Below, in pieces: positions 47,549 through 61,238 of a stretch of DNA of 64,000 nucleotides. The first letter of the stretch is position 1, and each line of letters opens with the position of its first letter. Location of the stretch: assembly GCA_947302655.1 (NCBI GenBank), contig CAMYVW010000001.1, forward strand, positions 186,001-250,000, given 5' to 3'. Position numbers and translations under genes: made by a program. The DNA comes from an uncultured Mycoplasmatota bacterium (GTDB taxonomy: Bacteria > Bacillota_I > Bacilli_A > RF39 > UBA660). A model generated the notes under the pieces. It had not been told where the DNA came from, ran no database searches, and was given only the letters and a program-made list of their open reading frames with translations.

Positions 47549-47580
47549 AAAACACTGAAGTTTTTAACCTTCAGTGTTTT
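47549..47580. terminator. Bidirectional terminator after the miniprotein operon and capA
   Basis: aaaacactgaag (47549-47560) pairs with cttcagtgtttt (47569-47580). On the reverse strand it is followed by seven T residues; it includes the capA stop codon. Confidence 0.85.
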
Positions 47581-48778
47581 CTATTTGACTAAATAGTGGT
47601 TCAATTTTATATTCATCATTTCCACCAGTTACGATATTCTTAAACTTTTCATAGTTACTTTCATAGTTTGTTAAATATTTTGCTATTTCAGAATTTGTAA
47701 ATGGAATTATTATGTGACCAGAATAAGATGGAACGTGTCTCCATGTAAATATCAAAGCACCACCAACATCACTTATTTCTATTTTTGACTCACCGTTTTC
47801 TACAGTCTTAGTGATATTTAAAGTTCCGAGTAAACCAACACGTTTATAGTCTTCAATTTGATTAGATAAATAATTACCTAATGAATAGTAAATAACAGTA
47901 TTACCAATTTTTTCTATTGGTTGAACAACATGTGGATGTGCACCTATAACAATATCTACACCTAAATCAGCAAGAAATTGTGCTTTTGTTCTTTCAGATT
48001 GTGTAGGAACATGTGTGTATTCTTCACCCCAGTGCATTGCTACAATTAAAACATCAACTTTATCTCTTAAATATTCTACATCTGCTTTAACTTTTTCATC
48101 ATTCCATACATTTACTAAATATGGTTTATCTGATGGTAGTGGAAGACCATTAGTGTGCTCTGTATAAGATAGCATTGCGTAAGTTATATTATTTTTTTCT
48201 TTTATTATATAATTAGTTCTTGTTTCTTCACTATCAGCTTGCCCATTCCACATAACATCAGTGTTCTTCCAGTAATTAACAGAATTTAATACACCTTGAA
48301 CTCCTTGGTCCATTGAGTGATTATTTGCAAGTGATACCATATTAAAACCAATATCTCTCATTGTATCAGCGAATGCTGAAGGGGTATTAAATCTTGGATA
48401 GCCAGAGTAACCTCGATCATCTCCGCCAATAATGGTTTCTTGATTGTAATATCTTAGATCAAATTGTTTTATATAATCAGCAACATATTTTTGTTGCTTA
48501 TAAAAATCAAATGTTCCATCACTTTTTTGAGCATCTCTAAATACATTACTATGTATTAAAGCATCTCCGCCCATAACCATGGATAATTTATATACTTTTT
48601 TAGTTTCTTTAACTTCTTTAGGTTTTGCATTATTGTTAGTATTATTCGAATTGGATTTATTTGTATTAGTTTCTTTATTAAATACTTTAAAATAAAGTAA
48701 ACCAGATAACGAACCAACAACAACTAAAAATATCAATGCTTTAACCCAAGTTTTAATTTTAGTTTTATGTCTTGCCAT
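47564..48778 (-). CDS. CapA-family metallophosphoesterase-like protein
   Basis: 404 aa. A cytosolic basic start and one membrane helix (about 10-28) precede a Thr/Asn-rich linker and a CapA (PGA capsule synthesis) domain: MGGDALIHS, YNQETIIGG, LANNHSMDQG, MHWGEEYTHVPT, GAHPHVVQPIE. These are metal-binding His/Asp/Glu blocks of the calcineurin-like fold. The family includes polyglutamate synthesis proteins, but no capB/capC is near, so a general envelope role is as likely. One base separates it from the HIT gene. Confidence 0.88.
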   Translation of the reverse strand: MARHKTKIKTWVKALIFLVVVGSLSGLLYFKVFNKETNTNKSNSNNTNNNAKPKEVKETKKVYKLSMVMGGDALIHSNVFRDAQKSDGTFDFYKQQKYVADYIKQFDLRYYNQETIIGGDDRGYSGYPRFNTPSAFADTMRDIGFNMVSLANNHSMDQGVQGVLNSVNYWKNTDVMWNGQADSEETRTNYIIKEKNNITYAMLSYTEHTNGLPLPSDKPYLVNVWNDEKVKADVEYLRDKVDVLIVAMHWGEEYTHVPTQSERTKAQFLADLGVDIVIGAHPHVVQPIEKIGNTVIYYSLGNYLSNQIEDYKRVGLLGTLNITKTVENGESKIEISDVGGALIFTWRHVPSYSGHIIIPFTNSEIAKYLTNYESNYEKFKNIVTGGNDEYKIEPLFSQIENTEG

Positions 48779-49248: not shown

Positions 49249-49773
49249 TTGGCAAGCTATAAAGAAATTGTTACTAAAACTGTAATTGGTAAAGCAAAAA
49301 AGACAAGTAAAAATGAGGTTTCATTAAAACCTGAAAATATGCCAAATACAGTTTTAGGCTGCTGGGTAATAAATCACTCATTTAGTGGTACAAATGAAAA
49401 TGGGTTAGTAAAATTAAATGGTTCATTTGATGTAAATGTTTGGTATTCGTATGATAGTGATCATAAAACAGCTGTATCTACAAAAACCTATAATTATGAA
49501 GATATTATGAACATACCTATAAAAAATAATGCTACACTAACTGATAGTTCAGAAATAATAGTTAGAAGTTTAAAACAACCAACTGTAAGTGATGTAAAAG
49601 TAGTTAATGGTGATGTAAAACTATTAGTTGAAAAAGAACTAGGTGTTGAGATAATTGGTGAAGCTAAAATTAAAGTATCTATAGAAGATGATGAAGATGA
49701 TTACGAAGAATTAATTGATGATTCTGAAGTTGATAATATAATAAATGAAATCGATGAAGAATATTTAAAATAA
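49249..49773 (+). CDS. cotE: Outer spore coat morphogenetic protein CotE
   Basis: 174 aa. The start ASYKEIVTKTVIGK, the NTVLGCWVINHSF segment, SFDVNVWYSYDSDHKT and a strongly acidic C-terminal tail are the CotE pattern; length close to B. subtilis (181 aa). CotE is recruited by SpoIVA and directs outer coat assembly. TTG start with SD aaaggggg eight bases before it. It is a single gene, not next to mutS as in Bacillus. Confidence 0.93.
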   Translation: MASYKEIVTKTVIGKAKKTSKNEVSLKPENMPNTVLGCWVINHSFSGTNENGLVKLNGSFDVNVWYSYDSDHKTAVSTKTYNYEDIMNIPIKNNATLTDSSEIIVRSLKQPTVSDVKVVNGDVKLLVEKELGVEIIGEAKIKVSIEDDEDDYEELIDDSEVDNIINEIDEEYLK

Positions 49774-50882: not shown

Positions 50883-51806
50883 ATGAAACCAAAAGTTATA
50901 TTTATGGGTACTCCAGAGTTTGCGGTTCCTATTTTAGAAGTTTTATTAAATGAAACCGATGTAAAGTTAGTTGTTACCCAGCCAGATAAACTTGTAGGAA
51001 GAAAACAAGAATTGAGTTATTCACCAATAAAAAAATTAGCTTTAGAAAATAATATTGATGTTTTTCAACCAGAAAAACTTAGAAATGATATTAAACCAAT
51101 TATTGATATTGATGCTGACTTAATTGTTACATGTGCATATGGTCAGATACTTCCTTTAGAAGTATTAAATCACCCTAAAATAGCATCAATAAATGTTCAT
51201 GCATCTCTTCTCCCTAAATTAAGAGGCGGAGCTCCAATTCATCATGCTATTATAGATGGATATGATGAAACTGGAATAACCATTATGTATATGGCAGAAG
51301 GTATGGATGATGGAGATATTATAAGTCAGGTAAAAACAAAAATAGAACCAACTGATAATGTTGGAACTCTTCATGATAGATTAAGTATTTTAGGAGCTAA
51401 ACTTTTAAAAGATACTTTACCAAGTATTATAAATAAAGAAAATAACCGTGTTAAACAAGATGAGGATTTAGTTACTTTTGCTTATAACATTAAAAGAGAA
51501 GAAGAACATATTGATTTTAATAAAGAAGGTAAAGTAATTATTAATCAAATTAGAGGTTTGAATCCATGGCCTACATCTAATACCATATTAAATGATGTAG
51601 AGTTTAAAGTTTTAAATGCTACTTTTGAACCTCAAAATGTTGATAAACCATACACCGTAAAGGTGGAAAAGAATAAACTTGGAGTTACATGTAAAGATGG
51701 AATCATATATTTTGATTTAATAAAGCCATTTGGAAAAAAAGTTATGTCTGTAAAAGATTTTTTAAATGGTGTTCATGATGATATATCAAAATGGAGCGTA
51801 AAATAA
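50883..51806 (+). CDS. fmt: Methionyl-tRNA formyltransferase
   Basis: 307 aa. Transfers the formyl group from 10-formyl-tetrahydrofolate to initiator Met-tRNA. Motifs: FMGTPEFAVP at the N-terminus, HASLLPKLRGGAPIHHAI with the catalytic His, and IRGLNPWPT at the C-terminal domain. The usual neighbours def and rsmB are absent. Its stop overlaps the next start by one base (TAATG). Confidence 0.97.
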   Translation: MKPKVIFMGTPEFAVPILEVLLNETDVKLVVTQPDKLVGRKQELSYSPIKKLALENNIDVFQPEKLRNDIKPIIDIDADLIVTCAYGQILPLEVLNHPKIASINVHASLLPKLRGGAPIHHAIIDGYDETGITIMYMAEGMDDGDIISQVKTKIEPTDNVGTLHDRLSILGAKLLKDTLPSIINKENNRVKQDEDLVTFAYNIKREEEHIDFNKEGKVIINQIRGLNPWPTSNTILNDVEFKVLNATFEPQNVDKPYTVKVEKNKLGVTCKDGIIYFDLIKPFGKKVMSVKDFLNGVHDDISKWSVK

Positions 51807-52480
51807 TGAAATTATTTAAAGAAAAAAAACAAAGAGAAATAAAAGAGGATGATAGTTTACTAGTTAAACTTTGGTATAACAAAAGAACTCATGCACTAAT
51901 GGTTCTTGGAATGTATGGGATCTTCTTATTAATTTTATTAATATTAGCATCTATTAGTTCATCTAAACCAGTAAATAATAATATTGTTAAAGCTAAAGAT
52001 GTAGAAAAATATTTTATATCATTAAATGATAAAGAAATATCCTATAGTGTTGTTATAAATAGCAATAATGAAGACATATATTATTTTACTGGAAAAAATG
52101 TTGATGATAACATTGTTGGTAAACTTCTTCATAATAATGAAGACTATCAAATAAGCATATCAAATGATGAGTGTAAAGTAGGAACTGTTACAGATGATGG
52201 TTTTATAGAAGATAGTGATAAATTATGTCCAGATGTAATTAATTATGATATTTTTAATTATGAAAAACTATATAATGATGTTCTTAATAAAGATACAACA
52301 AGAATAAGAAAGTATAATGATTATTATTCCTTTAAAGACAAAAATACAGCTTACAAATTATATGTTAAAAATGATACTTTATCAAAAGTTGATATTAGTA
52401 ATAAAGATGTGACTTATAGTATTAATTATTTTGAAAATATTACTGAAGATATTTTAAATGAAGATATTGCTGAAGAATAA
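51806..52480 (+). CDS. Single-pass membrane protein of unknown function
   Basis: 224 aa, not recognised. N-terminal 25 residues are highly charged and cytosolic, a membrane helix spans about 30-51, and an extracytoplasmic region of about 170 residues follows that is rich in Asp/Asn/Tyr with two Cys (DECKVGTV and DKLCPDV) likely to form a disulphide. The start overlaps the fmt stop; SD ggag (51793-51796). Part of an fmt-headed operon. Confidence 0.75.
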   Translation: MKLFKEKKQREIKEDDSLLVKLWYNKRTHALMVLGMYGIFLLILLILASISSSKPVNNNIVKAKDVEKYFISLNDKEISYSVVINSNNEDIYYFTGKNVDDNIVGKLLHNNEDYQISISNDECKVGTVTDDGFIEDSDKLCPDVINYDIFNYEKLYNDVLNKDTTRIRKYNDYYSFKDKNTAYKLYVKNDTLSKVDISNKDVTYSINYFENITEDILNEDIAEE

Positions 52481-52509: not shown

Positions 52510-53166
52510 ATGGATAAAAAAAGAAAACATATTCTAGTTCTTGTTAATTTAATAACGCTTTCAAGAATAATTGGATCAATATTTTTATTTCCAATTTATT
52601 TTGCATATGGAAAAATAGTTGTTGGTTTAATTCTAGCATTTTTATTTTTCACTGATTCAGTAGATGGTTACCTAGCAAGAAAATATGATGTTAGTACTTT
52701 TTTTGGAAGTATAATTGATAGTTTATGTGATAAAGTAATCATAATAGTTTCATGTCTTTTATTATGTTTTATTAATAAATACATGTATGTATGCATTATT
52801 ATAGAAACTTTAATTTGTTTAGTTAATTTATATGCATTAATGCAAAATGGTAATATTAAATCTAGTCAAATAGGTAAAATAAAAATGTGGGTTATAACTA
52901 TATGTGTTATTTGTGGATTTTTCGTTCCATCAAATAAAGAGGTTGTTAATATATTGATTGCAGCACCTGCAATTATATTTGAACTTCTAACTGTTACTGA
53001 TTATATAATTAAAGCATCAAAACTTAAACCAAGTATTAAAATAAAAAAACCACATTATAAAAACAAAACTGAAATTAAGCGTATGTTATTTGATCCTGAA
53101 TTCTATAGAAAACATAAAGATGAAAAAGGATTAATTTCTAACATATATAAAGATGGAAATAGTTAA
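52510..53166 (+). CDS. CDP-alcohol phosphatidyltransferase family protein
   Basis: 218 aa integral membrane enzyme of phospholipid synthesis. The signature DGx2ARx8Gx3Dx3D is complete: DGYLARK, then G and the two Asp in SIIDSLCDK (residues about 49-73). Several membrane helices. PgsA (phosphatidylglycerophosphate synthase) is one candidate, but the long basic C-terminal extension (about 175-218) is unusual, and I cannot decide the acceptor alcohol. SD aggtggtg upstream; 29 nt after the preceding gene. Confidence 0.88.
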   Translation: MDKKRKHILVLVNLITLSRIIGSIFLFPIYFAYGKIVVGLILAFLFFTDSVDGYLARKYDVSTFFGSIIDSLCDKVIIIVSCLLLCFINKYMYVCIIIETLICLVNLYALMQNGNIKSSQIGKIKMWVITICVICGFFVPSNKEVVNILIAAPAIIFELLTVTDYIIKASKLKPSIKIKKPHYKNKTEIKRMLFDPEFYRKHKDEKGLISNIYKDGNS

Positions 53167-53180
53167 CTATTTCTTTTTTT
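53156..53180 (+). terminator. Terminator after CDP-alcohol phosphotransferase gene
   Basis: A perfect palindrome gaaatagttaactatttc (53156-53173) followed by seven T residues; it overlaps the stop codon. Confidence 0.8.
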
Positions 53181-53225
53181 ATACCTTTGTGTTAAGATTT
53201 ATTTATGGAAAGTAGGTTATTAAGT

Positions 53226-54476
53226 ATGAAAAAGAAAATTTGTTTACTTATTATAGTTGCATTACTATTAGTATTTAGTATTTTCTTGTTATTTAATAAA
53301 ATAATATTAAAAAATAATAATGAAAATAAATCATCAAAAGTTGGTAGTTACAACATTAAATTAATTAAGGCAACAAAGGATAATAAGAATTATTTAGTTA
53401 GTCCATATTCTATTGAAATTGCCCTTAATATGCTAAAAGAAGGAGCAGATAATAACACACAAAAAGAATTAGAAAAACTGCTACCTGATAGAAAGATAAA
53501 TAATGTCTATGTTAAAGATAGAATAAATGTTGCTAATTCTTTATTTATTAGAAATACATATAAAAATAAAGTAAAAGATTCATATAAAGATAAGTTAGTT
53601 AATGATTATGATTCTGAAATCTTATATGATAATTTTAAAACTCCAGATGTAATAAATAACTGGGTTGATAACAAAACTAACGGAATGATTAATAAGGTTA
53701 TAGATGAAGTTCCAGAAGACATGGTAGTTGGTCTTGCCAACGCTATTGCAATTGATGTTGATTGGGCTTCAGAATTCGAATGCTTTAATACTACTGCTGA
53801 AAAATTTACAAAAGATGATGGAAGTATAATTAAAGTTGAAATGATGCATAATTCATATGAAAACGGCGCTAAATATATTAAAACAAAAGATGCAACAGGA
53901 ATTATCATTCCATATAAATCATATGATAGCAAAACTGGTAATGTAGATTATGATGACGGAACAAATCTAGAGTTTGTAGGTATTTTACCTGAAAAAAGTG
54001 TTGATTCATATATTGATAGTTTAACTGATGCTAAACTTAATGAATTATTTAAAAATGCTAAATCTTCATCAAGTAAATATGAGATTAATTTATCTTTACC
54101 AAAATTTAAATATGAGTATGAAGTTAAAGACTTTACTAAGGCTTTAAATAACCTAGGTATTAAAGATGCATTTAATCCTAAAAAAGCTGATTTTACTAAT
54201 ATGATTGATAAAAAAGATATGGAAAATAATATCTATGTTGGTACAGCAGTTCATAAAACATACATTGATTTAAATGAAAAAGGTACAAAGGCAGCTGCAG
54301 TAACATTCTTTGGAATGAAGAATTTTGCTGCAATTGATGAAGAAAAAGAATCTGTTGATATTATCTTTAATAAGCCATTTGTGTATATGATTAGAGATAA
54401 AGAGACTAAAGAAATGTTGTTCTTCGGTGCAGTATTTGAACCAAATAAGTGGACTGGATCAACTTGTGGTAATTAA
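53226..54476 (+). CDS. Serpin-family protease inhibitor, secreted or membrane-anchored
   Basis: 416 aa. A basic start with one hydrophobic stretch (about 5-24) serves as signal or anchor; there is no lipobox. From about 50 the serpin fold is clear: YLVSPYSIEIALNML, NAIAIDVDWASEF, and the hinge EKGTKAAAVT followed by a reactive loop and FNKPFVYMIRD and FGAVFEP. Counting from the hinge Glu as P17 gives P1 Phe (codon 54324-54326), suggesting chymotrypsin-like targets. Ends with WTGSTCGN. ATG 53226 is chosen; an upstream ATG (53205) has no SD. It has its own terminators on both sides. Confidence 0.9.
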   Translation: MKKKICLLIIVALLLVFSIFLLFNKIILKNNNENKSSKVGSYNIKLIKATKDNKNYLVSPYSIEIALNMLKEGADNNTQKELEKLLPDRKINNVYVKDRINVANSLFIRNTYKNKVKDSYKDKLVNDYDSEILYDNFKTPDVINNWVDNKTNGMINKVIDEVPEDMVVGLANAIAIDVDWASEFECFNTTAEKFTKDDGSIIKVEMMHNSYENGAKYIKTKDATGIIIPYKSYDSKTGNVDYDDGTNLEFVGILPEKSVDSYIDSLTDAKLNELFKNAKSSSSKYEINLSLPKFKYEYEVKDFTKALNNLGIKDAFNPKKADFTNMIDKKDMENNIYVGTAVHKTYIDLNEKGTKAAAVTFFGMKNFAAIDEEKESVDIIFNKPFVYMIRDKETKEMLFFGAVFEPNKWTGSTCGN

Positions 54477-54483
54477 AACTAAA

Positions 54484-54510
54484 AAAGGGTAGATTATTCT
54501 ATCTTTTTTT
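54484..54510 (+). terminator. Terminator after serpin gene
   Basis: aaagggtaga (54484-54493) pairs with tctatctttt (54498-54507) using G:T pairs, followed by T residues. Confidence 0.7.
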
Positions 54511-54536
54511 GTGATATAATTATATTGGTGAATAAT

Positions 54537-60803: not shown

Positions 60804-61238
60804 ATGAAAAAGGGATTAATGTATAAAATAATATCTTGTACTTTTCTTTTAGTATTTATGTATCTTGCTGCATCTTGCTCTATATCAAATGATAAAACTG
60901 AAGACAATGGGATTAAAAAATCTTATGATAACGTTGAAGAAGCCAAAAAAATTTCATTTGCAGATGAAGCTATGGCATTTGTAAGAGCTGCTCAAGAAGC
61001 ATATGTTACATCAGCAGTGGAAGGTGTAGATAAAACATGCTTTACTGTTTCTGAACTTATTGATGGCTTTGTTTCAACTAATAGTCCAGATAAGTACTAT
61101 GGTATAGTTGAAAAGATTTCTGATAACGAATGGAAAATATATGTTAGTAACGGAAAATATTCCATTGATGGTAAAAAATTTCCTTTAAGTAAAAATGATG
61201 TTATTAAATCAAAAGATATTTCGAAAACTAAATGTTAA
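60804..61238 (+). CDS. Lipoprotein with pilin-like globular domain
   Basis: 144 aa. The signal peptide ends in lipobox AASC, so the protein is lipid-anchored outside the membrane through Cys25. The mature part runs AMAFVRAAQEAYVTSA, then KTCFTVSELIDGFV, YYGIVE and WKIYVSNGKYSIDG. This order and spacing resembles the globular half of the pseudopilin at 19011 (KKCYSI, VGSVEV, KVWLTNGDMYIDG). It therefore looks like a pilin head on a lipid anchor in place of the pilin helix. Two Cys (55 residues from the end and the last residue) may pair. SD gtgagg. Confidence 0.72.
   Translation: MKKGLMYKIISCTFLLVFMYLAASCSISNDKTEDNGIKKSYDNVEEAKKISFADEAMAFVRAAQEAYVTSAVEGVDKTCFTVSELIDGFVSTNSPDKYYGIVEKISDNEWKIYVSNGKYSIDGKKFPLSKNDVIKSKDISKTKC

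Follow-up and report, generated by a model that had tools for sequence, protein, structure and literature searches.

The main phylogenetic survey of serpins calls their role in bacteria enigmatic; it places tengpin in Group T of a 6,000-sequence tree and describes the native state of tengpin as stabilised by an N-terminal tail (Spence et al. 2021; PMC8233489). Tengpin, from the thermophile Thermoanaerobacter tengcongensis (PDB 2pee, 2pef, 2vh4), is the nearest solved relative of the serpin described here, with the hinge GTKAGAVT against GTKAAAVT. The same survey describes contacts between a C-terminal tail and the breach for thermopin of Thermobifida fusca, in which the tail packs on top of sheet A, and for miropin of Tannerella forsythia (PDB 5ncs), which has one disulfide; disulfides are also described for aeropin (PMC8233489). 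Miropin, a bacterial serpin like the present one (profile E 1.4e-71), differs in that several cleavage bonds are used (PMC8201313). The siropins of Eubacterium siraeum, gut bacterial serpins likened to it here by description, have been shown to inhibit elastase and proteinase 3 (PMC5127057). The portions of the literature on Erysipelotrichaceae/Mollicutes and RF39 that were available to us describe no serpin of this lineage.

The window (the whole stretch of 64,000 nucleotides that was analysed) encodes a complete serpin of 416 residues (Table 1). The ORF listing gives 53205 as an alternative start; the second ATG is the likely one, since the relatives in the genus begin there. The protein matches PF00079 with 237 bits (cut-off 27; E 5.1e-70) over profile positions 12-370 of 370, has no NCBIfam match at E 0.001, and among solved sequences is nearest to tengpin (E 1.5e-44; profile E 5.4e-92). 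With this match and a complete frame, the gene is a real serpin, as the initial annotation had it, and a fairly ordinary member of a known family; what is new relative to known serpins is possibly its way of fixing the tail. It is the single serpin match in its own genome (1.04 Mb assembly, 9 contigs). The reading favoured here, held with moderate confidence, is of a suicide inhibitor anchored at the surface and directed against a protease from outside the cell that is perhaps chymotrypsin-like; its gene would be an inherited unit and its tail probably pinned by a disulfide. A serine protease would cut the exposed loop near Phe367, the hinge would slide into sheet A to form one more strand, and the protease, by then acylated, would be carried along and distorted in a one-shot trap.

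Table 1. Position of the serpin gene, its functional elements and its flanking features in the window
Feature	Position	Strand	Basis or remark
Hypothetical gene between fmt and rlmN	51791-52480		
pgsA-like gene between fmt and rlmN	52510-53166		
Terminator-like hairpin and T run, pgsA-like/serpin gap	53148..53181	.	z -3.95 vs shuffles over 53148-53184
Serpin coding sequence	53226..54476	+	ORF, Pfam, alignment A1
Putative membrane anchor, codons of most hydrophobic 19-mer (residues 5-23)	53238..53294	+	Mean hydropathy 3.4
Trp180, breach tryptophan	53763..53765	+	Invariant over 29 rows
Cys186, first of co-occurring pair, beside breach	53781..53783	+	Alignment and co-occurrence count
His343, shutter histidine	54252..54254	+	At least 90% conserved over 29 rows
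Reactive-loop hinge P17-P8, EKGTKAAAVT	54276..54305	+	Loop alignment; modelled as inserted strand
Bait stretch P7 to P1', Phe367 at P1 (codon 54324-54326)	54306..54329	+	Count from P17, profile alignment
Cys414, second of pair, C-terminal tail	54465..54467	+	Alignment and co-occurrence count
Terminator-like hairpin and T run after serpin	54480..54511	.	z -4.87 vs shuffles over 54474-54512
Extended -10-like element TGATATAAT before rlmN	54512..54520	+	Sequence reading; at 5/5 genus sites

Counting from P17 places Phe367 at P1. In an alignment of the family profile with conserpin carrying the alpha-1-antitrypsin loop, the stretch from hinge to P1 is ungapped and a Met falls opposite Phe367. This Met is taken to be P1 of the alpha-1-antitrypsin loop, and the alignment therefore upholds both the count and the earlier assignment of P1 as Phe. 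On the P' side the loop of the window serpin exceeds that of conserpin-AATRCL by about six residues, so the bond actually cut may differ. P1 is Phe, Met and Tyr in the three serpins of the genus, and across the nearest clade of 14 rows it is, by count, F, M, Y, K, V, S, E, T, Y, S, S, A, S and A, nine different residues (for the L027 row, T in the aligned column and A by count). Over these rows the mean pairwise likeness is 90% in the hinge, 48% in the body and 19% at P4-P1, and P1 is more variable than 98% of body sites. In the aligned sequences, this contrast between hinge and bait is what one would expect where a bait changes fast while the machinery that carries it is preserved.

The scissile bond could lie elsewhere than Phe367-Ala368, either after Lys365, as for a trypsin-like enzyme, or after small residues, as for an elastase-like one, or at several bonds that serve different proteases. 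In siropins 1 and 2 the cuts fall at P3-P2 and P6-P5 (PMC5127057), and in oral miropin at several bonds (PMC8201313), in each case away from the counted P1; of the 14 clade rows, 9 have Lys or Arg at P3. Cleavage at such a site is nevertheless judged rather unlikely, given the ungapped alignment with Phe at P1 and the peak of variation there, which suggests that P1 is the residue that meets the target. With cleavage at or near Phe367 as the preferred reading, the class of the target can reasonably be guessed but the individual enzyme is not predictable, because the characterised gut serpins and miropin are cut away from the counted P1. Phe, Met and Tyr at P1 in the genus suit perhaps a chymotrypsin-like target, and this part of the target proposed by the initial annotation can be kept; nothing singles out chymase or cathepsin G, which it had also named, and with nine P1 residues among 14 close relatives the whole inference of a target is a weak one.

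The likeliest prey would be a protease from outside the cell, in an animal gut. A gut habitat is suggested by one relative, RUG11168, in whose name RUG presumably stands for rumen. The most hydrophobic segment of the protein lies at its N-terminus, where residues 2-33 form a helix in the AlphaFold model and a lipobox cysteine is absent; the same region of the serpins of two other genus members, G003 and G002, ends in cysteines and has, by eye, a lipoprotein-like look. From its sequence, the window serpin is probably a single-pass, membrane-anchored and outward-facing protein. By eye in alignment A1, the family serpins L053 and L007 seem to be without an N-terminal anchor and are perhaps cytoplasmic. 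A surface serpin might alternatively restrain a protease of the cell itself. For subtilases, no match was found in the 5 genus genomes. An HtrA-like protease is encoded in all five. The serpin gene of G003 has the HtrA gene about 1.5 kb away, separated from it by DUF2441 and by a cyclophilin whose N-terminus is hydrophobic; a two-component system lies beyond. Restraint of HtrA by the serpin is nonetheless improbable, as HtrA also occurs in G001 and G004, two genomes that gave no serpin match, the serpins of G000 (the genome of the window) and G002 are not beside it, and P1 is unconserved across the clade, although a conserved endogenous target should conserve it.

Whether the protein would inhibit at all depends on the hinge and on the machinery beneath it. 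The consensus of inhibitory hinges has Glu at P17, Gly at P15, Thr or Ser at P14 and small residues at P12-P9; the window serpin has E, G, T and A-A-A-V at these positions, the Val at P9 being a minor departure. P17, P15, P14, P12, P11, P10, P8 and P6 are unvarying over the 14 rows of the nearest clade. In alignment A1, made from the window serpin and all listed locus references but the two L126 rows (28 of 30), the shutter residues Ser59, Ser62, Asn172 and His343 and the breach Trp180 are conserved. Trp180 is assumed to correspond to Trp194 of alpha-1-antitrypsin, and the other shutter and breach residues are likewise assumed to have their equivalents in that protein. The AlphaFold model, built on 29 rows, has a mean pLDDT of 85.9, and the hinge appears in it as a strand. 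The serpin fold of the window protein is seen in this predicted model, whose best structural match is antithrombin in its loop-cleaved form (1att; Z 41.5 over 343 residues, 2.1 A); native tengpin (2pee) scores lower, at Z 36.6. The best matches thus being loop-inserted forms, the hinge is taken to be modelled as inserted. By this model, the sequence of the hinge is suited to insertion into sheet A. A non-inhibitory protein, acting as a substrate or a structural surface protein, is also conceivable, given the Val at P9, where inhibitory serpins usually have a small residue, and given that inhibition is read from sequence and model. Spence et al. consider one clade of Group U, from Streptomyces, to be non-inhibitory (PMC8233489). 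A non-inhibitory role is improbable here, with the invariant hinge positions, the preserved shutter and breach residues and the modelled strand against it. The preferred reading is that the window serpin is complete and probably inhibitory, and the earlier description of a proper hinge of the inhibitory kind holds at the level of the residues.

A new feature is the pair of cysteines. Cys186 stands six residues past Trp180, and Cys414 lies in a C-terminal tail with mostly the motif W-x-G-(S/T)-T-C. Both cysteines are present in 16 of 70 serpins, neither in 54 and one alone in none (in alignment A1, both in 16 of 29 and neither in 13), a count behind which there are few evolutionary events, since the rows bearing the pair are related. 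One serpin inside the clade, L052, is without both cysteines and without the tail, and in sequence its state reads as a joint loss of the two. This co-occurrence suggests a disulfide linking Cys414 in the tail to Cys186 at the breach, and the pair would probably tie the tail down there. The model is of low confidence at the tail (block mean pLDDT 61). Matches to disulfide-forming enzymes are nearly absent from the 27 genomes searched (DsbB, PF02600, and VKOR, PF07884, in none; DsbA-like PF13462 in one, as a weak match in G001, where no serpin was found), and this speaks against a disulfide made by enzymes. By profile alignment, tengpin has no C-terminal tail and no Cys in the Cys186 column. 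Thermopin also has a C-terminal tail at the breach, which the survey describes as making its contact through an aspartate (PMC8233489), whereas a cysteine pair is proposed for the window serpin; homology of the two tails is not claimed.

Serpins are scattered through the lineage, with PF00079 matches in 12 of 60 relatives, in 80 of 386 family genomes (78 above the cut-off) and in 67 of 395 class genomes. Two builds occur in the family, the canonical one of the window type and an 'inserted' one of about 508-684 aa in full-length frames, in which the two serpin halves are parted by about 130 aa of largely helical sequence. By a reading of the match list, the inserted build is present in about 50 of the 80 matching genomes. 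The inserted serpins L010, L014, L015, L016 (from the same genus as the window), L020 and L011 are split after strand s3A, and the model of L010 has a mean pLDDT of 78. Their loop has a conserved GG-x-G-(A/D/N)-A and Ile at P14, whereas the canonical loop is hypervariable instead. Canonical serpins occupy many unrelated sites. Multiple copies were seen in a Prolixibacteraceae contig, with five consecutive serpin ORFs (L028, 3837-11944), and in one genome of the same class, with five serpin matches (G050:C1:1444011-1461942 and 199903-264633). Carriage by phage was considered and rejected: IMG/VR holds one distant relative (25% identity, on a stretch of 64% GC), and two 'Bacteriophage sp.' records in GenBank, marked UNVERIFIED, hold serpins at 29-32% identity among ORFs that look bacterial. 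These records, one with two serpins in tandem, are MT835777.1 (L162, 4690-7214) and MT835510.1 (L163, 11827-13062); by eye, from the beginnings of the ORFs, the neighbours in the former resemble sugar-metabolism enzymes and ribosomal proteins, and the ORF pattern of the latter looks like Bacteroidota. Plasmid carriage was likewise rejected, all 79 records being below 60% and the ten listed being remote at 25-28%.

The gene order around the window serpin is fmt - hypothetical - pgsA-like - serpin - rlmN - prpC - prkC - rsgA - rpe, with names beyond Pfam and NCBIfam matches assigned by reading. The serpin does lie between fmt and rlmN, as had been noted; it does not separate them immediately, as the hypothetical and pgsA-like genes also intervene, and the true site is between pgsA-like and rlmN. 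The terminators described on both sides of the gene are borne out as predicted hairpins that fold better than shuffled sequences. A consensus terminator scan returned one terminator, neither of these two, because the hairpins are A/T-rich and the scan demands three G-C pairs; a consensus promoter scan was at chance level (44 found, 46.2 expected). At the empty site of G004 there is one pgsA-rlmN terminator, and the hairpin that follows the serpin is similar to it. From this similarity, and from the extended -10-like element before rlmN at all five genus sites, we infer that the serpin unit was added between a terminator and a promoter that are both older. Other genes of the window include a CotE spore-coat family match (PF10628, 5.8e-42; 49249-49773) in this genome of about 1.04 Mb, a type IV pilin-like N-methylation protein just before fmt (PF07963; 50379-50870) whose counterparts occur throughout the five genus members, a PGA_cap capsule-synthesis type protein on the - strand (PF09587, 7.8e-65; 47564-48778), and a small lipoprotein-like protein of 144 aa at 60804-61238 with no Pfam or NCBIfam match.

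Three of the five genus genomes carry a serpin. It occupies the pgsA-like|rlmN site in G000 and G002; the site is empty in G001, G003 and G004, with the flanking genes 63-65 bp apart by match coordinates. The serpin of G003, apparently relocated, lies on another contig amid the DUF2441, cyclophilin, HtrA-like and two-component genes mentioned above (L060, 2659-6707), and no serpin match was found in the drafts of G001 and G004 (83% and 89% complete). In a tree built from seven neighbouring proteins, G000 pairs with G003 (100/100) and G001 joins next (87/95), leaving G002 and G004 unresolved. For the serpin tree, 78 sequences were collected and eight dropped, L140, L012, L139 and L058 as partial and L008, L009, L141 and L142 by choice as divergent; class loci L143-L146, missed by the collecting phmmer step, and family or class matches without a returned locus lie outside it. 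The resulting tree of 70 rows gives ((window, G003) 99/76, G002) 100/97 inside a family clade of 33 (100/100), an order in the genus that matches the species tree. The simplest history read from these sequences has the serpin already present in the ancestor of the genus, then lost in two lineages and relocated in one; two independent insertions at one site are also conceivable. Recent acquisition from outside the family (the initial annotation had allowed for an acquired gene) would suit the patchy presence, the empty sites and the many unrelated sites of canonical serpins, but is very improbable, since the genus clade follows the species tree within the family clade, the best matches beyond the family share about 25-38% identity, and both records labelled as phage look bacterial. 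The gene would instead be a self-contained unit with its own terminator, inherited in the genus and lost or moved in some of its members.

The lineage has a genus in which the site is filled in some members and empty in others, bait loops that vary from one close species to the next, and a mutable cysteine pair; these make the choice of target and the effect of a link from tail to breach testable with purified proteins. As a tentative and more speculative proposal, the serpins would form a family-specific surface shield, tethered to the membrane, with a conserved machinery and a rapidly exchanged bait, in which the disulfide-pinned tail tunes loop insertion, perhaps by redox. If this is true, the pinned tail would correspond, in covalent form, to the contacts that thermopin and miropin make between tail and breach, in uncultured bacteria with genomes of about 1 Mb.
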